A stretch of DNA of 64,000 nucleotides from Ferruginibacter paludis (GTDB lineage Bacteria > Bacteroidota > Bacteroidia > Chitinophagales > Chitinophagaceae). The notes beneath the pieces were generated by a model. It saw only the letters and a program-made list of their open reading frames with translations. It was not told the origin of the DNA and made no database searches. Below are positions 17,851 through 27,839 of this stretch, piece after piece. The position numbers were made by a program, and so were the translations under genes. The stretch is taken from assembly GCF_030409685.1 (NCBI RefSeq), contig NZ_JAUFQJ010000004.1, positions 434,001 through 498,000 of the forward strand, written 5' to 3'. Every line of letters begins with the position of its first letter. The stretch's first letter is position 1.

Positions 17851-19986
17851 TCACGGCAAAGCAAAAGCGATGACCTTATTTCCTTTGGGCGTGCCTAATT
17901 TTTCCCCGCCGCATGCCATTACTATAAACTGCTTACCATTCACACTGTACATGGCGGGCGTGGCAAAAGAGGCCGCAGGCAATTTTGTTTGCCATAATAA
18001 TTTACCGGTGTATTTATTAAAAGCCCTGAACATGCCGTCTTTGGTAGCCGCTATAAAAAGCAATCCGTTTTCCGTAACAATGGGACCTCCATAATTTTCG
18101 CAGCCTGTCGGGTTGGTATCCTGGTTCGGAAGGCCCGGGGTTATTCCTAAAACAGATTGCCAAAGCTGCTGCCCCGTGTTTAGGTTGATGGCGGTAAGTG
18201 TGCCCCACGGAGGGGTGATGGCCGGTAATCCTTTGTCATCTAAAAACTTGGGATAGCCTGTGTGCAGATATTTATCCGGCGGTACTTTTGCAAGGTCTTT
18301 CGAGACCGCTTCCTTCTTTTCAACCCCAAATAAAAAATCGACCAGTGTTTGTTTTTCTTCCTTCGAGATGCCGGATACGCCGGGCATTTTGCCCTTTCCA
18401 TTGCTCACAATTTGCAACGCGGTTTGCAGGTTTAATTTTTGTGCAACCGCAGTAAGGTTTGGATAACCGCTGGCAGCCTTGCCTTCCCTGTCTGCCCCAT
18501 GGCATGTAGCGCAATGGGCGGTGTATATTTGTTCACCCGGTGATTTGAGTCCGCCTGCCGCATTTCTCGCCAAGCCATTCCTTTTTTCCTGTTCCTTTTT
18601 TGCAGCTTGTTCCGCCGTTTCCATTTTTAAAAACCAGGCCATTTCATTGGCATTTACATACAAAATGCCTTTGTAAGGATCGGCCGCAGCGCCGCCATAT
18701 TCTGCCCCGCCATCATAGCCCGGCAGTAACAATACATTGCTTGTATCCGGCGGTGCCAATGGTCTTTTATCTGCAGCCAGGAATAATTTTTTAAGTTCTG
18801 CCTTGTTGTTGGCGAACGGACTGATATCGTTTTCTGTAAGACCTGTTATCTGCCTTGCAAAAGGCTTCGGCAGCTCAGGTACCGGTTGTGTGGGCCAGGC
18901 TTCTTCGCCCGTTAATTTGGATGGAAGTGCTGCTACTTCATTGACCGGGAATAATGACGCTCCTGTATTTCTGTCCAACACAAAAGTATAGCCCTGCTTG
19001 GTTACCTGCGCAACTGCGTCTATTTGTTTACCGCTTTTTGTAACGGTAATTAAATTTGGCGGTGCAGGCGGATCCCTGTCCCACAAATCGTGATGCATCA
19101 TTTGGAAATGCCATTTATAAGTGCCGTTATCTGCATTCAATGCCAACAGACAATTTGCATACAGGTTGGCTCCTTTCCGGTTGGCTCCATAAAAATCCGG
19201 GGCGGCAGACCCCAAAGGTATAAAGATGGTGCCTGTCTTTACATCCACTGCTGTACCAGCCCAGTTATTTACTGCGCCAACGTTTAGATTCCTGTATGTT
19301 TCTTTGGGCCATGTATCATAGCCTCTTTCCCCGGGTTGCGGAATAGTATGAAATGTCCAAACCAGTTTGCCGGTGCGAACATCGAATGCCCTTACATAAC
19401 CCGGAGCAGCACCTGCATCTTCTGCTACCCTTACCGGCATGATGATTAAATTTTTATAGATCGTACCGGGTGTAGTGCTGTTGATGTATTTGTCCTTTGC
19501 AGCATCCGGCAAGCCGGTATGCAAATCAACTTTACCAGACTCACCAAAGGTTAAAATGGGTTTTCCGTCTGCCGCATTTAAAGCAATCAGGTTAGATGCA
19601 ACGGAAACAAAAATCCGCTTATCATTGCCATCTTCCCAATAGGCCACGCCCCTGCATGTTCCGTTCGATGCCAGCGAATCTTTGTACAGCCACAGTTCCC
19701 TGCCGGTAGCGGCATCCAGCGCAAATACTTTTAAGGCTGCGCTAACGCCATACACCACACCGTTTACCATCACCGGGTTCATCTGCATTTGCCCGCTGTC
19801 GGGTGCATCGTAAGTCCAGGCAATTTTTAATTGTTGTACGTTGCTGGTATCTACCTGGGCCAGTGTTGAATAATGATTTCTGTCCGGCCCGCCCATGTAC
19901 TCGCTCCAGGAATCGTATTTGCTTTTTACGGATGATTTGCAACCTGCCAATAACAAAATGGCGCCCAGTAATCTAACGTATTTCAT
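17851..19986 (-). CDS. PQQ-dependent dehydrogenase lipoprotein with inserted cytochrome c domain
   Basis: A 711-residue periplasmic lipoprotein (lipobox LLLAGC at about residue 15). It is a PQQ beta-propeller: repeated DAATGRELW, DVRTGKLVWTF and DRNTGASLF blade motifs, with active-site-type segments such as HHDLWDRDPPAPPN. A cytochrome c domain with the haem motif CATCH near residue 490 is inserted before the last blades (LNTGQQLWQS, NKYTGKLLWQTKL). It should oxidise a sugar or alcohol and pass electrons to its own haem. The frame also has an upstream ATG at 20025, but that falls inside the terminator hairpin of the preceding gene, so 19986 is chosen. Confidence 0.87.
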   Translation of the reverse strand: MKYVRLLGAILLLAGCKSSVKSKYDSWSEYMGGPDRNHYSTLAQVDTSNVQQLKIAWTYDAPDSGQMQMNPVMVNGVVYGVSAALKVFALDAATGRELWLYKDSLASNGTCRGVAYWEDGNDKRIFVSVASNLIALNAADGKPILTFGESGKVDLHTGLPDAAKDKYINSTTPGTIYKNLIIMPVRVAEDAGAAPGYVRAFDVRTGKLVWTFHTIPQPGERGYDTWPKETYRNLNVGAVNNWAGTAVDVKTGTIFIPLGSAAPDFYGANRKGANLYANCLLALNADNGTYKWHFQMMHHDLWDRDPPAPPNLITVTKSGKQIDAVAQVTKQGYTFVLDRNTGASLFPVNEVAALPSKLTGEEAWPTQPVPELPKPFARQITGLTENDISPFANNKAELKKLFLAADKRPLAPPDTSNVLLLPGYDGGAEYGGAAADPYKGILYVNANEMAWFLKMETAEQAAKKEQEKRNGLARNAAGGLKSPGEQIYTAHCATCHGADREGKAASGYPNLTAVAQKLNLQTALQIVSNGKGKMPGVSGISKEEKQTLVDFLFGVEKKEAVSKDLAKVPPDKYLHTGYPKFLDDKGLPAITPPWGTLTAINLNTGQQLWQSVLGITPGLPNQDTNPTGCENYGGPIVTENGLLFIAATKDGMFRAFNKYTGKLLWQTKLPAASFATPAMYSVNGKQFIVMACGGEKLGTPKGNKVIAFALP

Positions 19987-20012
19987 ACAGCCGTTTGAGT
20001 TTTTTAAATAAC

Positions 20013-20043
20013 TACGGCTTATCATTCAGCATGATAAGCCGTA
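20013..20043. terminator. hairpin terminator between sugar isomerase and PQQ dehydrogenase
   Basis: TACGGCTTATCA (20013-20024) pairs perfectly with TGATAAGCCGTA (20032-20043) around a 7-nt loop. It lies past the stop of the minus-strand sugar isomerase gene. The T run is better on the plus strand, so on the minus strand it may act as a weak terminator or processing hairpin. Confidence 0.65.
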
Positions 20044-20079
20044 TATTTTTTGTGCTTACAAATCGTAATCCGGTTGCTT

Positions 20080-20967
20080 TTATTTTTTCAATTTGGCTAC
20101 CTGGTCGTTGTAAAATTTGACCGTTTCAATTACATCAGGCACATTATTTTCCCAGTTAGATTCATGTTCGATAGAAAACATGCCTTTAAAATTTTGCCTG
20201 TTTAATTCTGCAAAAGCTGGTGCAAAATCAATTACGCCTTTTCCAACAACGGTATCGGCGGCATCTGTCTTATCAAATTTAACAATGTCTTTCAGGTGAA
20301 CACCATAAATATGTCCTTCCAGCTTTTTCAAACAATCAACCAGGTTTAAACCATTGCGTGCCCAGTGACCCAGATCAGCACATGAACCAATGTTGTTATG
20401 GCCCTTAACCGCCGCCAATACTGAGTCTGGGTGCCAGTAAGCATTTGGTTTAGGATGATCGTGGATAGCGATTTTTATGCCATATACGCCGGCAAGACTA
20501 TCGGCCAGGTCCCATTGGGTTTTGATTGGCTCTGAAGTAATATAACTCAATCCGAATTCTTTTGCCAGTTCAAAAGTTTTAATCCATTCGTCTTTGCCAT
20601 TTGGTGTTGTTACGCCCATAGCCACCATTTGAATGTTATGTTGTTTCAGCACATCTTTCAATTTTTGTCTGCCGGCTGCGGACATACTGATACCAAAAGT
20701 ATCTTTACTTGTTTTGTCAAAAGGCTGACCCAGGAAAGCCTCGATGTACCTTACTCCTGCACTGTCTGCCTTGGCGATGGCTTCGCTTTGTGTAAACAAA
20801 CGGAACGTCCATAACTGCACACCAATTTTCCAGTCGGCGGTATTGTTTACGGCTGCTGTCGCACTATCTTTTGTTGCGGCATCTTCAGTTGAAGTAGAAT
20901 TATTGTTGCAGGAGACAAAAATAAACAGCGCTGCAACGGCGCAAAAAAAGGAAATTTTGTTCGTCAT
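20080..20967 (-). CDS. sugar phosphate isomerase/epimerase-like TIM-barrel lipoprotein
   Basis: A 295-residue xylose-isomerase-like TIM barrel (AP_endonuc_2 fold) carried on a lipoprotein signal (lipobox FVSC near residue 20), so it acts outside the cytoplasm. Typical segments are WKIGVQLWTFRLF at the first strand, IQMVAMGVTT, IAIHDHPKPN, a metal-binding Asp in GSCADLGHWARNG, VHLKDIVKFDK and the terminal FSIEHESNWENN. The frame extends 3 codons to a TTG; the ATG at 20967 is preferred. It is the first gene of a set with a PQQ dehydrogenase and DUF1080 protein. Confidence 0.85.
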   Translation of the reverse strand: MTNKISFFCAVAALFIFVSCNNNSTSTEDAATKDSATAAVNNTADWKIGVQLWTFRLFTQSEAIAKADSAGVRYIEAFLGQPFDKTSKDTFGISMSAAGRQKLKDVLKQHNIQMVAMGVTTPNGKDEWIKTFELAKEFGLSYITSEPIKTQWDLADSLAGVYGIKIAIHDHPKPNAYWHPDSVLAAVKGHNNIGSCADLGHWARNGLNLVDCLKKLEGHIYGVHLKDIVKFDKTDAADTVVGKGVIDFAPAFAELNRQNFKGMFSIEHESNWENNVPDVIETVKFYNDQVAKLKK

Positions 20968-21299: not shown

Positions 21300-21860
21300 T
21301 CAATATTTAATAAAATTCTGCCACTCTTTAATTTCATTATCATACACCAGCAGTGTTTTGTAGCTCTTGTTATCTTCCATATAAATTACATAGGTTGGCA
21401 ACATTTCCTGCGATTGCATTGTCAATATTTCCTGCACCTGGTAAATACTAAAATCAAAATACTCTCTTTTAATCATAGCCCGAAGGTCTTTCGACAACTT
21501 GCTTTCGTTGTATGTTTTTAAGCTCCCGGTCCAGTAACCTTTCTTGTTATAATAGATTGAATTTTTGACACCGTCATTATTAAACTGAACATTGAAGCCT
21601 TCATCAATAAAATACCACCGGGCATCCCCTGCGTTTTTATAGAATTTATTAAAATTCTTTATGGCTTTACTGTTGACGGTTGCAAGCGAAACCGTGTTTG
21701 ATTTTACAGTTTCTGTTGCCAGGTCTGTCTTGTACATTTTTTCCATTTGTGCGTCATTGTGCAAAACAGCAACAGTGTTTGAGTTTTGTGCCACTGCGGT
21801 GTTGGTTGTTGCAAGGGCAGGAATAAAACCAGCCACTAAAGCAAAAAAATACTTTTTCAT
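21300..21860 (-). CDS. secreted PepSY-like protein of unknown function
   Basis: A 186-residue exported protein with a signal peptide ending TNTAVAQ near residue 25. The mature part carries FNKFYKNAGDARWYFIDEGFNVQFNNDGVK and later strand-rich repeats, the pattern of Bacteroidota PepSY-like (DUF2874-type) periplasmic proteins. I cannot assign a function. It is divergent from the sigma-factor operon, 430 nt away. Confidence 0.65.
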   Translation of the reverse strand: MKKYFFALVAGFIPALATTNTAVAQNSNTVAVLHNDAQMEKMYKTDLATETVKSNTVSLATVNSKAIKNFNKFYKNAGDARWYFIDEGFNVQFNNDGVKNSIYYNKKGYWTGSLKTYNESKLSKDLRAMIKREYFDFSIYQVQEILTMQSQEMLPTYVIYMEDNKSYKTLLVYDNEIKEWQNFIKY

Positions 21861-22290
21861 TTTGTTTAAAATTTAAGTTGTTTGGATGATTTGTTTTTGA
21901 TTACCTGGTACCGGTACTTGTTCACCTATTGGTCGCAGAACAAAGAAGGATGGAAACAAAAAAATTTATTTTTTTTGTTTTTATTTTAAAAACGATCGGG
22001 TAAAGTCCACTTTCCAGTATAAGCCCGGCTTGCAGCCGATCAAAAAATCGGTAAAAAGAGAGTAACCTATTTGGTAATCCGACCGTGCCGAGCTGAGAAT
22101 TTTTATTCTCAATTATTACTTGATGGCACTTGCCCTTTACCGGTTAACCTCCGATATACTGCTCAATATTTCAGCAGCAGTTAAAAAATTCCATGCTTTT
22201 ATCAATTAGTTTATGACCTGTTTTTAATAATAATCAAAAGGCTTTTATTCTCATAATTATTTTATTATCTTTCTATAACACTTATCAGAT
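21861..22290. other. divergent spacer upstream of the sigma-factor operon
   Basis: 430 nt of AT-rich DNA with no coding frame I believe. It contains a small perfect hairpin TGAGAAT-TTTT-ATTCTCA at 22094-22111 and the promoter candidate near 22266. The control region of the operon that follows should be here. Confidence 0.5.
22243..22273 (+). promoter_or_regulatory. candidate promoter of the sigma/protease operon
   Basis: TATCTTTC at 22266-22273 matches the Bacteroidota -7 consensus TAnnTTTG in 7 of 8 positions. A TTTT run at 22243-22246, 19 nt upstream, is a weak match to the -33 TTTG. The start codon follows at 22291. The evidence is a single weak motif pair. Confidence 0.3.
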
Positions 22291-22881
22291 ATGCCTTTTG
22301 AGCAACATACGATTTCAACCGACGAAGATTTAATAGAAAATCTTCATCAGAATGCTTTGCTGAAGCGTAAAGCAGAAGACACCATTTTTACCCGCTATGC
22401 TTATTTCATAAAAGAAGGAATGCATAAATACACATTGCTGGAAGAGGATGCATTTGACGCCTATTCTGACGCTGTATTGCAAGCCATCAACAATATTGTC
22501 AGTGGTGTCTTTGAAAGAAAATCATCCCTTAAAACCTATCTCTACAGAATTTTTACAAATAAATGTGTTGACCTTATCCGAAAAAAAACGACTAATAAAA
22601 ACAGCATACATCAAACATCCTCTTTAACTGACATGCTTTTTATGATTGCTGATTCAGCAAAAACGGTGGTGCAGCAACTGGTAGAAAAAACGGATGTGGA
22701 TATGCTAAAAAACAAAATGAATGAACTGGGCGATAACTGCCGGCAACTGCTGACGTTGTTTGCAGACTGTTATACTGATAAGGAAATTGCTACAACAATG
22801 GACTATAAAAGTGCTGATGTGGTAAAAACAAGCCGCCTGCGGTGCCTTGAAAAATTGCGCCAGTTATACCTCAACAAATAA
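22291..22881 (+). CDS. ECF-like sigma factor (sigma-70 family)
   Basis: A 196-residue RNA polymerase sigma factor of the small ECF type. Region 2 is seen in AFDAYSDAVLQAINNIVSG followed by SSLKTYLYRIFTNKCVDLIRKK (residues about 52-100), the core-binding and -10 helices. Region 4 is the C-terminal helix-turn-helix LGDNCRQLLTLFADCYTDKEIATTMDY (about 145-175), followed by RLRCLEKLRQLY. It starts a tight operon: the next gene begins 11 nt downstream. Its likely job is to drive genes for the membrane and protease proteins that follow. Confidence 0.85.
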   Translation: MPFEQHTISTDEDLIENLHQNALLKRKAEDTIFTRYAYFIKEGMHKYTLLEEDAFDAYSDAVLQAINNIVSGVFERKSSLKTYLYRIFTNKCVDLIRKKTTNKNSIHQTSSLTDMLFMIADSAKTVVQQLVEKTDVDMLKNKMNELGDNCRQLLTLFADCYTDKEIATTMDYKSADVVKTSRLRCLEKLRQLYLNK

Positions 22882-22892
22882 AAAACATTCAG

Positions 22893-23633
22893 ATGAGCAA
22901 CCTGGAATATATAGATGATTATTTTAACGGCTCCCCGGACGATCAGCAAAAACAACGGTTTGAGGAACTCATTAACAACGACGTTGCTTTTGCAGAAGAA
23001 GTGGCATTTTATGTAGCCGCCAAGACAACTTTGCAACAACATGCCCAGCAGGAAAAGAAAGAACGCTTCAACAATTTATATAGACAGCAACATGCCGTGC
23101 CTGTTGTACAATTAAAGCCGGCTAAACGGGTATGGCAATATTTTGCGGCGGCCAGCGTGTTGCTTTTTATATTCCTTTTAACCTGGTTTGTAAATAACAG
23201 AAAGACTTCCCCGGATCAACTGGCGGATACGTACATTCAACAAAATTTGCTAACCCTCCCGGTAACTATGGGAACGCAACAGGATAGTTTGCAAACAGGG
23301 CTTAATCTATATAAATCGGATAAACTTCCGGAAGCACTACAGTACTTTGAAACGATGTTAAAAAATAATGCGGCCGATGATGCCGCAAAAAAATACGCTG
23401 GCATTGTTTCCCTTCGCTTAAAAAATTACGACAAAGCCCTGACCTATTTTAAATCACTGGAATTGAATACTGCTTCGTTCAGTAATCCCGCTAAATTTTA
23501 TCATGCGCTTACGTTGTTAAAACGCAACAATACCGGTGATAAAAACGCAGCCGTTTTAATATTGCAAGATGTGGTAGCGAAAGATTTGGAGGGGAAAGAA
23601 ACAGCGGTGGGGTGGCTAAAAAAATTAGAGTAA
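22893..23633 (+). CDS. single-pass membrane TPR protein, probable anti-sigma factor
   Basis: A 246-residue inner-membrane protein. The cytoplasmic N-terminus (YIDDYFNGSPDDQQKQRFEE) resembles the N-terminal helices of Bacteroidota anti-sigma factors, without a zinc motif. One membrane helix follows at about residues 85-103 (FAAASVLLFIFLLTWFV). The outer part, residues 130-245, has tetratricopeptide helices (LNLYKSDKLPEALQYFETML, RLKNYDKALTYFKSL). The order fits a sigma/anti-sigma pair with a sensing periplasmic TPR domain; this is inferred from position and architecture. Confidence 0.72.
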   Translation: MSNLEYIDDYFNGSPDDQQKQRFEELINNDVAFAEEVAFYVAAKTTLQQHAQQEKKERFNNLYRQQHAVPVVQLKPAKRVWQYFAAASVLLFIFLLTWFVNNRKTSPDQLADTYIQQNLLTLPVTMGTQQDSLQTGLNLYKSDKLPEALQYFETMLKNNAADDAAKKYAGIVSLRLKNYDKALTYFKSLELNTASFSNPAKFYHALTLLKRNNTGDKNAAVLILQDVVAKDLEGKETAVGWLKKLE

Positions 23634-23665
23634 TTAACTATTATTAATTCATAAAAAACATTACG

Positions 23666-25069
23666 ATGAAACTCTTTCATCCATTCTGCAACGCTGGAAT
23701 TATTTTTTTTCTATTTGCTTCATCCCTGATTATGTCGCAATTATTTACTTCCTGCAAACCAACGAATTCGCCCAATGTTACTGGTTACCTGACACCGGAT
23801 ACAAGCACTTATGTGGAAAAGATTAGCTGGAATGTTTTATTCAAAGAAAATGTTAGTCAGCCAAAAAAAGAAAAGATTATTAACCAGATTAAGGATTCCG
23901 TTAGACTTTTTTATACTCGTTATAATCACGCATATGGTACACGTTTTATGCCGGTATTCGACAGCACATATTGGTGTCCATGTGATTCAACACTTTATAA
24001 TTTGAATTTCCATAGTATAATCCCCTCACCAAATGGCGCCGGACAGTCGGTGTCTTCACCTCCTCCAGGAAAGGGACTGGGAGGTCAAGGAGATCTTGTT
24101 GATGTATTGTATGTCAGTGACAATGTCGTTATAAGTGAACCTTTCAATAAAGAAAATGCAACCTCACCTTTGCAACACAATGCTATAAAAATCGATGATA
24201 AACCAATTGATGGCAATAAAATTCTCTCAATAATAGATTCAGGATTAGATACTTCTTTATTTACCTCCTCAGTAAAAAAACTTATATGGCGCGACCAGAT
24301 TAGCACAAAAACGTTATTCAATTTTTTGCCGGGCCAACCTGTTAAAGACTTTAACGATGCCGGGGCAGTGAAACATGGAAGCGCCGTAACTGCTATCGCA
24401 CTTGATGCAATGCGCCAGGCCATATCCTATCCGCAAGTAATGATTCTAAAAGCGCTTGATAATAAAGATCAGGGTAGCATCTTTTCTGTTAGCTGTGCTT
24501 TAAGTTATGCAATTCAGAAAAAAGCAACTGTGGTAAATTTAAGCCTGGGATACTTGGGCAAAGCCGATTCTATAATGAGGCATTATATAGCTCTTAGCAA
24601 TAAAAATGCTTTAAATCCTTTACAATTATTCGTCGCTGCCGGTAATACACCTTACCCTCATAAAGACTCTTTACTTTGCAGCAGTGCATTTGCTAATAAT
24701 TTACTGATAAACAATCAGCTATTTTATCCTGCATGCTTTAGTAAATCATTTAACAACCTTACTAGTGTAACACAAATAAGATTGCCTGATAGCTATTGCT
24801 ATTATCAGTATTATTCAAATGACTACATCACCCTGGGTGTTCTAAATAATGAAACCTGTTGTTCATTCAAGGTCAATTTCAGAGCATCTGTTCCCCAATT
24901 TTATGAAGGATCCTCATTTGCTACTCCTTTTGCAAGTGGGCTTAAAATGATGACAATTTTAAACCAAAGTTTGCCGGGACTTGCAAACATTGATTGGAAT
25001 AATTTGCTACAAACCGAAATAACAAAAAGGGTAACCAGAGACGGTAAGTACATTGTTCATCAACGTTAA
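23666..25069 (+). CDS. subtilisin-family (S8) serine protease lipoprotein
   Basis: A 467-residue exported S8 protease. The N-terminus is a lipoprotein signal with a lipid-attachment Cys in LFTSC near residue 30. All the family's key residues are visible: Asp191 (ILSIIDSGLD), His237 (VKHGSAVTAIA), oxyanion Asn327 (VAAGNTPYP) and Ser417 (GSSFATPFASG). The ~150 residues before the catalytic domain have no recognised fold; a 20-residue low-complexity, Gly/Pro-rich stretch near residues 130-142 is coded by a palindromic repeat. It ends 1 nt before the CHAT gene's ATG. Composition is visibly AT-richer than the flanking metabolic genes. Confidence 0.85.
   Translation: MKLFHPFCNAGIIFFLFASSLIMSQLFTSCKPTNSPNVTGYLTPDTSTYVEKISWNVLFKENVSQPKKEKIINQIKDSVRLFYTRYNHAYGTRFMPVFDSTYWCPCDSTLYNLNFHSIIPSPNGAGQSVSSPPPGKGLGGQGDLVDVLYVSDNVVISEPFNKENATSPLQHNAIKIDDKPIDGNKILSIIDSGLDTSLFTSSVKKLIWRDQISTKTLFNFLPGQPVKDFNDAGAVKHGSAVTAIALDAMRQAISYPQVMILKALDNKDQGSIFSVSCALSYAIQKKATVVNLSLGYLGKADSIMRHYIALSNKNALNPLQLFVAAGNTPYPHKDSLLCSSAFANNLLINNQLFYPACFSKSFNNLTSVTQIRLPDSYCYYQYYSNDYITLGVLNNETCCSFKVNFRASVPQFYEGSSFATPFASGLKMMTILNQSLPGLANIDWNNLLQTEITKRVTRDGKYIVHQR
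24054..24096 (+). repeat. palindromic element inside the S8 protease gene
   Basis: ACCTCC at 24058-24063 pairs with GGAGGT at 24080-24085 around a purine-rich loop. The sequence encodes the Pro/Gly-rich stretch SPPPGKGLGGQG in frame. It has the look of a REP-type palindrome that sits in the coding sequence without breaking the frame. Confidence 0.45.
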
Positions 25070-25070
25070 A

Positions 25071-27839
25071 ATGAGAATACTGACATCTATACTAATTATC
25101 ATCGCCGCAACCGGGGTTGTAGCCGGTCAATGCCCTGACAAAAACTTCCTTTGGCGCCGAATTGTAATTTTAAAAGATTCGACAAATATTGACCCTAAAA
25201 AGCAGCTGGATGAATTACTGGGCTATTCAACTAAATTAAATCAATGCGGGAGTATTATTGATTCAGGGTATGTTTTACTATTGCACCGCATTGGCTGGCT
25301 GCATGCTACTCAAAAAGACTATTTTTCCGCAATTCTCTCTACACAAAATGCAATTAAGCTTATATCCGGCAATATTGCGAACGAAGCCATCAATCCCCGG
25401 CAAATAATTAAGAGTTATTGGAACCTGCATATCTTTTATGATTCTTTAAAACTGGAGTCAAAAAAAATGGCCGCTATTGATAGTTGCATTGCAAATGCAA
25501 TTAAACTTAATGGAGAATTCGATATTGCGCTCAATGCGCTTACTATAAAGGTTCGTCAGCTGTTTAACAATGGAGACTATTACAGTTGTATCTATTTTAC
25601 AGATCTTGGTGAAAGTATAATAGCCAAAAATAAAAAGACCGTTATCTATGCAGAATATTTTGAGTCAAGAGCTTTTACGTGGAAAATCAACTCCCTTATT
25701 TTTTTAAACAAATACGATGATGCCGAAGAATTAGTAAACAGAAAAATTGAGGTATATGAAAGACAAAAGAATACAGCAATGTTAGCGACTTTATATGGAT
25801 TAGTGGGGCAGATAAAAAGACATAAAGGAGATTTTGAAAAAGCAATCTATTTTTTTAGAAAGTCATTCGAATTTAATAAAAAAAACAACTATAGTCAAGG
25901 TTGCGCAGAAGCTCTAAATAATATAGGATTCGCTTATTATACTGATTTACATCTTAACACAAAAGCTATCACTTACCATTTCAAAGCTCTCAGCTATGCA
26001 GATGCAAATGAATCTCTGAATATTTTTGACAACATCGCTAATATCTATACCCACACTGGACGATATGATTCCGGTTTTTTTTACTTTCAAAAAGCTTTTG
26101 ATCAATTGCGGCCAGGCTTCAATGAAGCCGACCTGTTAAAAAAAGAAAATGCTGAACTGGCTGGAACCATCACCGAGTATATCACCGGCATGGTGTTGGA
26201 CAAAGCCTCCGCCTGCCTGCTCAAATATAAAACAACCGGTGATAAAAAATTCCTTGCAGAAGCTATCCGCATTTATGATATTACCGATCAATATTTTGAA
26301 CAACTAAAAGCAACACAATCCGAAGTTCAGTCCAGGCTATTTTGGAGAACAAATAACCGAAGATTGTACGAACAAGCGATAGAAGCATGCTATGCCAGCA
26401 GTAATTCTGAAAAAGCATTTCATTTTTTTGAAAAAAGCAGGAGTGTTTTATTAAACGACCAGCTAAGGCAACAATACCAGATGAGCGACCGTGACATATC
26501 CAGGCAGGCACAATTAAAAAAGAACATATTGGATATTGAAAATGACTTGCAAAAACTTCAGGCAATACACCGGCAATCAGCTGAATTACAGCAACAATTA
26601 TATGCCAATAAACAAGAGCTGAATTTATTGAATAAGCAAAGTGAAGCCATACTCCCTTCTTTTGATAAAAAAAATTTTGACACTGCGGCTCCCACTCTTG
26701 GCCAGGTAAGAAACAAAATCCTTACCAGCAATAAAATATTACTCGAAATTTTTGCAGGCGATAGCAACGTTTATATAATGGCAGCAGATTTTCAAAAAAT
26801 ATATTTAGTGCAACTAGATAAACAATTGTACGATAGCCTTACCAGTTTATACATTAAATTAATCTCTGGATCGCATTCATTGAATAACAATTTCACTCTT
26901 TTCACTACTATATCTAATGAACTCTATAAACTCATTTTTAAAAACTTGTTGTTGTCCACAGCAGAAAGTCTTATTATTTCACCAGACGGAAAAAGTTTTC
27001 CATTTGAGGCATTGGTTACCGGTTTTAAAAACGGACAACCAGATTATTTGCTGCATCGCTACGCAACAAGTTATACTTATTCAGCAAAGTATTTGATGAA
27101 CGACTATTTACCGAATACTGAAAACAGTTATACGGTTTTAGGCATGGCACCTATAACATACAAAGCAGACACTGGTTTAAATGAATTGAACGGCAGCGAT
27201 ATTTCGCTTCAAAAAATAAAAGAACTGTTTCCAAATACAACAAACCTCCTCTTTGAAAAAGCAAGCAAGAAAAATTTCTTTGAACAGTTTCCAAGCTATA
27301 CAATTATCCAATTATACACCCACGCATCAGATAGTAGTTCAGGCAATGATCCGATTATTTACTTTGCCGATTCTTCTATGTTGTTGTCGGAACTGATTAC
27401 AGACCGAAAACCTATTACGCAGCTAGTTGTGCTATCCGCCTGCGAAACGGCCAATGGAAAACTGTATGAAGGCGAAGGCATATTTAGTTTTAACCGCGGT
27501 TTTGCGGCGCTTGGTATACCGGCCGCAGTCAGCACTTTATGGTCAGTTGAAAACGAATCGACTTATAAAATCACCGAATTATTTTATAAATATTTAGCAC
27601 AGGAACTGCCAACAGATATCGCGTTACAAAAAGCAAAACTGGAATTTATCAGCACCAGTACATCAAAAGAAAAAACACTGCCATATTACTGGGCCGGACC
27701 AATATTAACAGGCAAAGTGGATACGATTATCATTAAAAAAACCACACCGTGGAAAACAATTTTAATCGCAGGTATTGCGCTGCTGGCGGGCGCATTTACA
27801 ACAAAAAAATACTTGTTAAATAAGAGGAACCGGGGATAG
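25071..27839 (+). CDS. exported TPR-CHAT caspase-like protease, membrane anchored
   Basis: A 922-residue protein with an N-terminal signal peptide (ILTSILIIIAATGVVAGQ), TPR helices from about residue 170 to 330, a long coiled-coil region near 430-540, and a C-terminal CHAT protease domain. The catalytic dyad is His751 in IQLYTHAS and Cys791 in VVLSACETANG. A last hydrophobic helix (about 897-915, ILIAGIALLAGAFTT) with a basic tail anchors it in the membrane, so the TPR and CHAT parts face the periplasm. The frame extends 6 codons upstream into the protease gene, but the ATG at 25071 right after the stop codon fits best. No CRISPR genes are near, so it is not a type III-E Craspase component. 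Confidence 0.85.
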   Translation: MRILTSILIIIAATGVVAGQCPDKNFLWRRIVILKDSTNIDPKKQLDELLGYSTKLNQCGSIIDSGYVLLLHRIGWLHATQKDYFSAILSTQNAIKLISGNIANEAINPRQIIKSYWNLHIFYDSLKLESKKMAAIDSCIANAIKLNGEFDIALNALTIKVRQLFNNGDYYSCIYFTDLGESIIAKNKKTVIYAEYFESRAFTWKINSLIFLNKYDDAEELVNRKIEVYERQKNTAMLATLYGLVGQIKRHKGDFEKAIYFFRKSFEFNKKNNYSQGCAEALNNIGFAYYTDLHLNTKAITYHFKALSYADANESLNIFDNIANIYTHTGRYDSGFFYFQKAFDQLRPGFNEADLLKKENAELAGTITEYITGMVLDKASACLLKYKTTGDKKFLAEAIRIYDITDQYFEQLKATQSEVQSRLFWRTNNRRLYEQAIEACYASSNSEKAFHFFEKSRSVLLNDQLRQQYQMSDRDISRQAQLKKNILDIENDLQKLQAIHRQSAELQQQLYANKQELNLLNKQSEAILPSFDKKNFDTAAPTLGQVRNKILTSNKILLEIFAGDSNVYIMAADFQKIYLVQLDKQLYDSLTSLYIKLISGSHSLNNNFTLFTTISNELYKLIFKNLLLSTAESLIISPDGKSFPFEALVTGFKNGQPDYLLHRYATSYTYSAKYLMNDYLPNTENSYTVLGMAPITYKADTGLNELNGSDISLQKIKELFPNTTNLLFEKASKKNFFEQFPSYTIIQLYTHASDSSSGNDPIIYFADSSMLLSELITDRKPITQLVVLSACETANGKLYEGEGIFSFNRGFAALGIPAAVSTLWSVENESTYKITELFYKYLAQELPTDIALQKAKLEFISTSTSKEKTLPYYWAGPILTGKVDTIIIKKTTPWKTILIAGIALLAGAFTTKKYLLNKRNRG

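Follow-up and report, generated by a model that had tools for sequence, protein, structure and literature searches.

We found that a conserved operon in the window, a stretch of 64,000 nucleotides, places an ECF sigma factor and its predicted anti-sigma factor beside an exchangeable cassette. Since the S8 protease gene and the sensor half of the adjoining CHAT protease are replaced as one block, we give an even chance to the reading that the operon acts in the cell envelope as a switch with variable recognition, its specificity changing with the cassette. The cassette would consist of the gene in the third slot, here the S8 protease gene, and the TPR half of the TPR-CHAT protease gene.

All four open reading frames were real and intact on the + strand, at 22291-22881, 22893-23633, 23666-25069 and 25053/25071-27839. 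An earlier note on this DNA had described four genes in tight order, and this was confirmed by intergenic gaps of 11, 32 and 1 nt when CHAT starts at ATG 25071. This start is likelier than the previously assumed TTG 25053, and the numbering of His751 and Cys791 used in the earlier note matches it. The first gene (SIG, 22291..22881, + strand) encodes 196 aa and matched Sigma70_r2 with 30.3 bits (cut-off 24) and the sigma70-ECF model TIGR02937 with 58.5 bits (cut-off 42.9). By the curated cut-off, and in line with its reading frame and relatives, SIG is an ECF sigma factor. The second gene (ANTI, 22893..23633, + strand) adjoined SIG in 80 of 81 loci, counted in the window and the best 80 of 105 relatives. 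Its TPR matches stayed below the Pfam cut-offs, hydropathy gave one hydrophobic helix at residues 82-100 and the structure model reached a mean pLDDT of 90. When the model was compared with the PDB, nothing was found at E<=0.001 and the best matches were TPR domains. Two named anti-sigma models matched weakly, far below cut-off. From the position next to SIG, the N-domain and the single membrane helix we predict that ANTI is a membrane anti-sigma factor with a cytoplasmic helical N-domain and a TPR C-domain; inhibition of SIG is likewise a prediction.

The third slot (23666..25069, + strand) holds a predicted S8 subtilisin-like lipoprotein with a lipobox-like Cys30, which matched Peptidase_S8 (PF00082) with 35.5 bits (cut-off 21.8). 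Asp191, His237, Asn327 and Ser417 were the same in all 57 aligned S8 proteins, a number that includes three duplicates (L012-L014, of L047, L053 and L075). The structure model aligned over residues 51-466 with unprocessed pro-subtilisin E and has a prodomain-like N-domain (about 39-120) followed by a low-confidence linker (121-146). Judged by the Asp/His/Ser triad, the oxyanion Asn and the predicted fold, the protein belongs to the S8 subtilisin family. The fourth gene (25071..27839, + strand) encodes 922 aa, in which CHAT (PF12770) reached 122.8 bits at a cut-off of 24 and TPR_12, TPR_2 and TPR_1 were also above cut-off. The catalytic His751 and Cys791 were kept in 62 of 62 proteins of a first alignment, from which CHATs under 880 aa and the same three duplicates had been dropped, and in all 58 proteins of a second set; both counts include the window. 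By cut-off and catalytic His and Cys, the gene encodes a CHAT cysteine protease, and the earlier claim that both proteases keep their catalytic residues extends to all aligned relatives. Searched by itself against the PDB sequences, the CHAT domain gave no CHAT structure at E<=1; with the A4 profile, the 60 PDB matches listed corresponded to its TPR part. Of the envelope features ascribed to CHAT, the signal-peptide-like N-terminus stood, and an export-like N-terminus was found in 113 of the 119 CHATs of both sets. The C-terminal anchor is plausible: in the window the hydrophobic stretch is below the 1.6 hydropathy cut-off, and in part of the relatives it was flagged.

The conservation of the operon was followed in two sets of loci. 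The first comprised the best 80 of 105 relatives (L033-L112) and the window, with 75 judgeable loci, and the second comprised 60 of 89 genomes (L221-L280). The sets overlap in species, for example in L069 and L241, and are therefore not independent; nor are the pairs or loci. SIG, the ANTI candidate and TPR-CHAT followed in order in 66 of the 75 judgeable loci, and a recognised S8 gene lay between ANTI and CHAT in 50 of these 66. All four genes were present in 55 of the 60 loci of the second set. The earlier note had proposed a self-contained module that would be refuted if the families did not co-occur in other genomes; they did co-occur, in this order. CHAT was missing from nine of the 75 judgeable loci, one of which had S8, indicating that the SIG-ANTI pair has other uses. 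Of the 222 genomes sampled from one family, 89 carried the sigma factor, and the sigma paralogues of another family were, among the matches listed, mostly without S8-CHAT. Two weak S8 matches (L010, L011) were rejected; they sit in loci L017 and L018, both without the module.

Operons of close relatives differ in a mosaic pattern: SIG, ANTI and the catalytic end of CHAT are alike, and S8 is swapped as a block together with about the first 380 residues of CHAT. When the window was aligned with the Ferruginibacter MAG L033, one flank was 98.0% identical over 9.8 kb, the other 97.7% over 6.5 kb, and SIG-ANTI was 87.8% identical. Inside the replaced stretch (23628..27260, + strand), alignable sequence was limited to 134 nt at 71% and 44 nt at 86%, and the last part of CHAT was again 97.7% identical. 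The same mosaic was observed in Runella, Dyadobacter, Fibrisoma and Spirosoma records, with the left edge no more than about 40 nt away from the stop of ANTI and the right edge near CHAT residue 367-402, corresponding to about 26170-26275 of the window. By these alignments a block is replaced between relatives within conserved flanks, a pattern expected of a polymorphic recognition locus. A literature search that covered few subscription papers and preprints gave, among the papers listed, no description of the four-gene set or of the cassette exchange.

To compare the parts of the operon, we took the 118 pairs of the second set with a CHAT C-part at least 62% identical, 115 of which have S8 on both sides. 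The TPR half and S8 were both under 45% identity in 82 of the 115 pairs, both over it in 30 and split in 3. Clustering at 40% identity divided the 55 loci of the second set into 26 clusters by S8, two by ANTI and one by the CHAT C-part. The partial correlation of the S8 distances was 0.51 with the TPR half of CHAT and 0.08 with ANTI. That S8 and the TPR half are replaced together may be plain linkage, because the conserved DNA for recombination sits outside both. In the pair L243/L257, S8 and the TPR half showed 86-98% DNA identity, SIG-ANTI 59-75% and the CHAT end 68-80%. Since the cassette is alike in surroundings that have diverged (59-80%), it marks a recombination tract. We conclude from these identities that the cassette is exchanged between lineages by recombination, with L243/L257 as the one clear pair.

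An ordinary envelope-stress operon would be another, if rather unlikely, explanation. The sigma factor and the membrane anti-sigma factor would run proteases for quality control. Variation of S8 and the TPR half would come from the fast change usual in secreted proteases and repeat domains, or from neutral exchange, with no recognition involved. Neutral variation does not easily account for sharp edges at matching positions in several genera, for an exchange tract between lineages or for catalytic residues kept in every aligned S8 and CHAT despite the divergence. It does agree with the housekeeping-like neighbours of the operon, the single copy per genome in most genomes and the periplasmic prediction, and the variable location of S8 would be a sign of loose constraint.

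The contribution of the S8 protease bears on the linear cascade suggested in the earlier note, where S8 senses an envelope signal and cleaves ANTI or activates CHAT, with the sigma factor as output. S8 was not recognised by profile in 16 of the 66 CHAT-bearing loci, one of which (L044) has a divergent S8 by Pfam; of the ten slot-3 alternatives searched, the other nine had no Pfam family. At least four CHAT-bearing loci keep just a short protein matching the S8 N-domain. In L038, L042, L050 and the small membrane or Gly/Pro/Thr-rich slot-3 genes, no link to the S8 N-domain was found in a comparison that omitted the smallest ones. Since the S8 catalytic domain can be absent from loci that retain a prodomain-like part and CHAT, the module does not require S8 proteolysis. 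An export-like N-terminus was missing from 19 of 54 S8 proteins of the first set and from 51 of 109 in both sets, which overlap in species, so direct contact between S8 and CHAT cannot be general. The S8 distances do not track ANTI, and S8 was swapped in pairs such as L065/L072, L107/L096 and L228/L243, in which ANTI was still 79-97% identical. The cascade is therefore improbable, even though the gene order and the intact S8 catalytic residues suit it and S8 could reach ANTI from either side, as ANTI spans both compartments.

A Craspase-type phage-defence module with CHAT as an infection-triggered, cytoplasmic-type executioner is very improbable: TPR-CHAT, sigma factor and inhibitor resemble Csx29/Csx30/CASP-sigma as presented in PMC10028731, and fast exchange fits an arms race, but CHAT is predicted to be exported, the site is chromosomal with conserved flanks, the III-E RpoE-like sigma model NF041236 gave SIG only 35.9 bits at a cut-off of 100, and PADLOC 2.0.0 gave the four operon proteins no specific model (two TPR-type matches only, E 7e-4 and 9e-4) and the ten neighbours generic ABC-ATPase and LolE-like matches only. 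The defence reading of the earlier note found no specific match in these searches; a role of the module in conflict may still apply.

A predicted ECF promoter, TGTTTCC-N17-CGAC, lies within ANTI (23405..23432, + strand) and faces S8-CHAT, with the ATG 233 nt on. An exact site of this type was present in 20 of 81 complete ANTI genes, second copies included, whereas 300 synonymous shuffles averaged 0.09 and never exceeded 2. In the second set, a site with at most one mismatch was found in 34 of 57 ANTI genes versus 0.72 expected, always at 0.68-0.72 of the gene. Synonymous-codon shuffles fail to explain the site, which is kept beyond protein-coding demand. Among complete ANTI genes of the first set, a site with up to one mismatch occurred in 29 of 65 loci with CHAT versus 0 of 9 without CHAT (Fisher p 0.0099) and was missing from 36 of the 65. 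The module holds two of the five exact sites of the genome, where the motif was not enriched (5 matches versus 19 for the reversed control). The second exact promoter-like site (21932..21958, - strand) faces a divergent gene, away from SIG. This gene, with its ATG 71 nt after the site, encodes a small exported protein of 186 aa (21300..21860, - strand) that is predicted to be co-regulated and had no Pfam family above cut-off. Autoregulation of SIG through an upstream GTCG...GGAAACA was rejected, since the other strand reads TGTTTCC-N16/17-CGAC and faces away from SIG. In none of the loci searched did an exact site face SIG, and expression of SIG and ANTI would therefore depend on a different promoter. 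The CGACTAA-extended motif was a weak genome-level mark of the module, with 4 of 7 module genomes versus 2 of 19 in which no module was seen, most of the 19 being judged by S8 search only, and it was absent from the genome of the window.

For the recognition switch that we favour, the TPR half of CHAT, predicted to be periplasmic, would read a variable ligand or partner, and the slot-3 product would be matched to it as partner or substrate. Once activated, CHAT would cleave ANTI in its periplasmic part and possibly, where S8 is exported, also the linker that joins the prodomain of S8 to its catalytic domain. A Gly/Pro-rich linker is a conceivable site of CHAT cleavage. The freed SIG would transcribe slot 3 and CHAT from the promoter within ANTI in a positive feedback, and also the gene of the small exported protein. 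The ligand, the substrates and the phenotype in this reading are inferred. More tentatively, the operon is possibly the bacterial equivalent of immune or allorecognition receptor loci, placed at the cell envelope, with an exchangeable sensor-plus-partner cassette, a caspase-like executioner, a sigma-factor amplifier and an induction promoter within ANTI. As this promoter is hidden in ANTI, any incoming cassette would be wired to the same switch. If the recognition switch holds true, common environmental Bacteroidota would have a CHAT protease in their envelope, serving as the constant end of a sigma-controlled, recombining recognition system. Matched and mismatched cassettes occur naturally in close relatives, which makes the acquisition of variable sensors by caspase-like proteases directly testable.

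Among known CHAT proteases, one is the proteolytic component of a CRISPR complex, and fungal members activate gasdermins; DegS/RseA/RpoE is a protease-regulated anti-sigma system. With the latter, the operon shares a membrane anti-sigma factor (here predicted), an ECF sigma factor and a predicted periplasmic input, but it adds dedicated CHAT and S8 genes and an exchangeable cassette. Systems of the DegS/RseA/RpoE type are named in PMC10028731. In the type III-E CRISPR Craspase, cleavage of an inhibitor relieves the inhibition of the sigma factor (Csx29, Csx30, CASP-sigma), and one locus combines a TPR-CHAT protease, an ECF-like sigma factor and its protein inhibitor, for which we have a candidate here (PMC10028731). 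The operon differs in its export-like CHAT, its membrane TPR inhibitor candidate and a slot 3 with S8 or a short protein. The EACC2/TRADD-N systems also join a caspase-like protease, an ECF sigma factor, a TPR protein and variable domains proposed as sensors; profile searches reported no EACC2 or TRADD-N match for the four operon proteins, CHAT here has a signal peptide, and what varies is one gene and a half, exchanged as a block. In fungi, het-Q1/het-Q2 are a gasdermin and a subtilisin-like protease, encoded as different genes at one locus, and TPR-CHAT/gasdermin pairs occur as well, so that subtilisin or TPR-CHAT proteases are likewise found at polymorphic recognition loci (PMC12881547). 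There is no gasdermin among the four genes here, and we infer recognition in the bacterial case. Polymorphic toxin systems, as described in PMC3482391, exchange cassettes by recombination next to a constant part. In our operon, by contrast, the N-terminal sensor half and a protease gene are variable and the catalytic end is constant.

The four genes that the earlier note had grouped as one set are present and intact in the window, all on the forward strand. An ECF sigma factor gene (SIG, 22291-22881) is followed by the anti-sigma candidate ANTI (22893-23633), S8 (23666-25069) and CHAT (25071-27839), and Pfam and NCBIfam support the sigma factor, TPRs, Peptidase_S8 and CHAT. For CHAT, the ATG at 25071 is likelier as the start than the TTG at 25053 proposed before. 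The catalytic residues are kept as claimed: D191, H237, N327 and S417 were invariant in 57 of 57 S8 proteins compared (three were duplicates), as were H751 and C791 in 62 of 62 CHAT proteins. No tRNA was detected in the window by ARAGORN, and no RNA family at the Rfam gathering threshold.

The gene order was followed in two sets of relatives. For the first, species genomes were scanned with a five-row sigma alignment and the best 80 of 105 relatives were fetched; the genera include Ferruginibacter, Pinibacter, Chitinophaga, Parafilimonas, Pedobacter, Mucilaginibacter, Spirosoma, Runella, Dyadobacter, Larkinella and Fibrisoma. Counting the window, ANTI directly followed SIG in 80 of 81 loci, and CHAT was found in 66 of the 75 judgeable loci, meaning those that showed CHAT or had 3.3 kb or more of DNA beyond ANTI. 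A recognised S8 lay between ANTI and CHAT in 50 of these 66. In a second family, the sigma factor occurred in 89 of 222 genomes (E<=1e-40), with a single match per genome in all except two. When 60 of the 89 were fetched as the second set, 55 loci were complete, two were SIG-ANTI-CHAT, two SIG-ANTI only and one was on a truncated contig. The module is thus conserved in this order. Across the class, 11 of 395 genomes had the sigma factor at E<=1e-25, counting distant paralogues. The window S8 was matched in 8 of 117 sampled whole genomes of its own family: four had the full module (the window's genome, L012, L013 and L014), L016 had the full order with a divergent sigma factor, L015 had S8-CHAT only, and two matches were unrelated S8 genes.

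Several loci showed variant arrangements. Two CHAT genes stand in tandem behind SIG-ANTI in L083 (11589-17460), and about 4 kb downstream in L075 the opposite strand carries an extra C-terminal part of CHAT (19607-20545). In L044 (12091-13551), the position between ANTI and CHAT (slot 3) has a divergent S8 protease, preceded by a small gene; the protease was found by Pfam and missed by the S8 profile. SIG-ANTI of L084, L093, L095, L097 and L104 (Arcicella and other Cytophagales) has no slot 3 or CHAT nearby, and a similar convergent gene adjoins. One large-genome family (G500, G572, G759, G777, G810) carries 4-8 SIG-like genes per genome (E<=1e-25). Among the matches listed, SIG-like genes at L143-L162, L166-L168 and L171 are paired with ANTI-like genes, some near divergent CHAT genes. 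On contig C21 of the window's genome (L019, 3889-9101), the neighbourhood of another exported CHAT gene includes, on the opposite strand, a distant sigma-like gene followed by a 254-aa gene.

Closely related loci differed abruptly within the module. Against L033, the window has 98.0% identity over the 9.8 kb preceding the module, 87.8% in SIG-ANTI and, starting in the last part of CHAT, 97.7% over 6.5 kb. In the interval from the end of ANTI to this last part of CHAT, no more than 134 nt (71%) and 44 nt (86%) could be aligned. Similar breaks were seen in Runella (L107/L096, L085/L089), Dyadobacter (L080/L074, L062/L074, L062/L080), Fibrisoma (L065/L072) and Spirosoma (L064/L078). They begin at most about 40 nt from the ANTI stop and end near CHAT residue 367-402, except that similarity in Fibrisoma stays weak as far as about residue 732. 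Identity in these pairs is 12-31% for S8 and 65-88% for the part of CHAT that starts at residue 612. Profiles in 40-residue blocks, made for seven of these or similar pairs, gave mostly 5-45% identity over CHAT residues 1-360, followed by a stepwise rise. The break was absent in eight other pairs (L045/L053, L045/L047, L069/L070, L071/L091, L055/L060, L054/L058, L061/L071, L063/L066). L258 and L263 share 99% of SIG, 97% of ANTI and 97% of the CHAT C-part, with 22% in the TPR half and a stretch without an ORF of at least 40 aa in place of slot 3. Among 5.8 billion proteins, the window S8 has one 98% relative, the next being at most 58%. The mirror image was observed in L243/L257, where the cassette of slot 3 and TPR half is 86-98% identical in DNA inside surroundings of 59-80%, with a right edge near CHAT residue 550; SIG-ANTI of L243 is 85-98% like L228. 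In this pair the cassette has been exchanged, and fast evolution alone does not explain it.

S8 and the TPR half changed jointly. Over 47 loci with all parts, S8 distances correlated at 0.49 with those of CHAT residues 1-380 and at 0.51 after partialling on CHAT end, SIG and ANTI (reached in 0 of 500 permutations). Correlations with SIG (0.11), ANTI (0.16) and CHAT end (0.15) were weak, and the partial value for CHAT residues 380-612 was 0.17 (2 of 500). Of 118 second-set pairs with CHAT C-parts at least 62% identical, 115 had S8 on both sides; split at 45%, TPR half and S8 were both low in 82, both high in 30 and divided in 3. At 40% identity, 55 loci formed 26 clusters for S8, two for ANTI and one for the CHAT C-part. 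The nearest neighbour was common to S8 and TPR half in 35 of 55 loci, to S8 and CHAT C-part in 22, and to ANTI and CHAT C-part in 38. The co-movement may be simple linkage, since the conserved stretches available to recombination flank the two together.

Comparison of upstream regions yielded TGTTTCC-N16/17-CGAC, a spaced pair of elements of the kind found in ECF promoters. The window's genome (6.92 Mb) has five exact matches. One lies inside ANTI (23405-23432, forward strand) and is directed at S8-CHAT; another (21958-21932, reverse strand) faces a divergent small exported protein gene (21300-21860). A third is followed after 41 nt by a DUF4082 lipoprotein gene on contig C18 (L180, 896-1459), a possible further regulon member, and the remaining two have no start codon of a long ORF close by. 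The reversed pattern, used as a control, has 19 matches, so there is no genome-wide enrichment; what sets the motif apart is its placement. Exact sites were found within 20 of 81 ANTI genes, where 300 synonymous shuffles gave 0.09 on average and never more than 2; with up to one mismatch, sites were found in 34 of 57 second-set genes versus 0.72 expected. The genes in these counts are non-independent by ancestry, and the codon model is built on few genes per locus. All second-set sites are located at 0.68-0.72 of the gene. With up to one mismatch, 29 of 65 CHAT-bearing first-set loci had the site versus none of 9 without CHAT, and it was absent from the two second-set SIG-ANTI-only loci (3 mismatches). 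In relatives, a small exported protein gene, either divergent from SIG or directly after CHAT, often has this element in front of it. A CGACTAA-extended motif occurred in 4 of 7 module genomes and in 2 of 19 genomes where no module was seen, with no match in the window's genome. Larkinella L055, L056, L060 and L079 have a second ANTI-like gene between ANTI and S8, and the site lies in this copy.

Of the signalling or defence module proposed earlier, the self-contained, conserved set is supported. PADLOC gave no specific match for the four proteins and only generic ones for ten neighbours (one Mla-like ABC ATPase, one LolE-like permease). The neighbours show similarity, mostly under NCBIfam cut-offs, to genes of sugar metabolism, PQQ dehydrogenase and Mla transport, and in several relatives glyA-, mnmA- or sucB-like genes, named by eye, adjoin the module. 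The module therefore looks like a chromosomal locus, not a defence island, though it may still have a conflict role.

Topology was called by hydropathy heuristics rather than a dedicated signal-peptide program. The N-terminus of CHAT was hydrophobic in 113 of 119 proteins, and ANTI has a single membrane helix and a TPR C-domain. For S8, the N-terminus was hydrophobic in 32 of 54 first-set proteins (49 of 109 in both sets) and clearly not in 19 of 54 (51 of 109). From these patterns CHAT is predicted to be periplasmic, ANTI membrane-spanning and S8 lineage-dependent in its compartment. This switch between lineages speaks against a single fixed S8 target. The cascade that the earlier note let start with S8 is unsupported.

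The reading that we put forward, at about even confidence, is a sigma-controlled envelope module with the exchangeable cassette as its recognition part. The TPR half of CHAT would be the sensor, slot 3 its partner or substrate, ANTI the transmitter, and SIG an amplifier acting via the predicted promoter in ANTI. What is new is the exchangeable S8-TPR cassette, together with the promoter-like site that lies within the anti-sigma gene. The order of proteolysis would follow Craspase by analogy, where, according to PMC10028731, the TPR-CHAT protease Csx29 cleaves Csx30 and inhibition of CASP-sigma is relieved. An S8 protease is also part of a NucA system (PMC7159879), and the fungal het-Q1 and het-Q2 are, according to PMC12881547, different genes of one recognition locus, one of which encodes a subtilisin-like protease.
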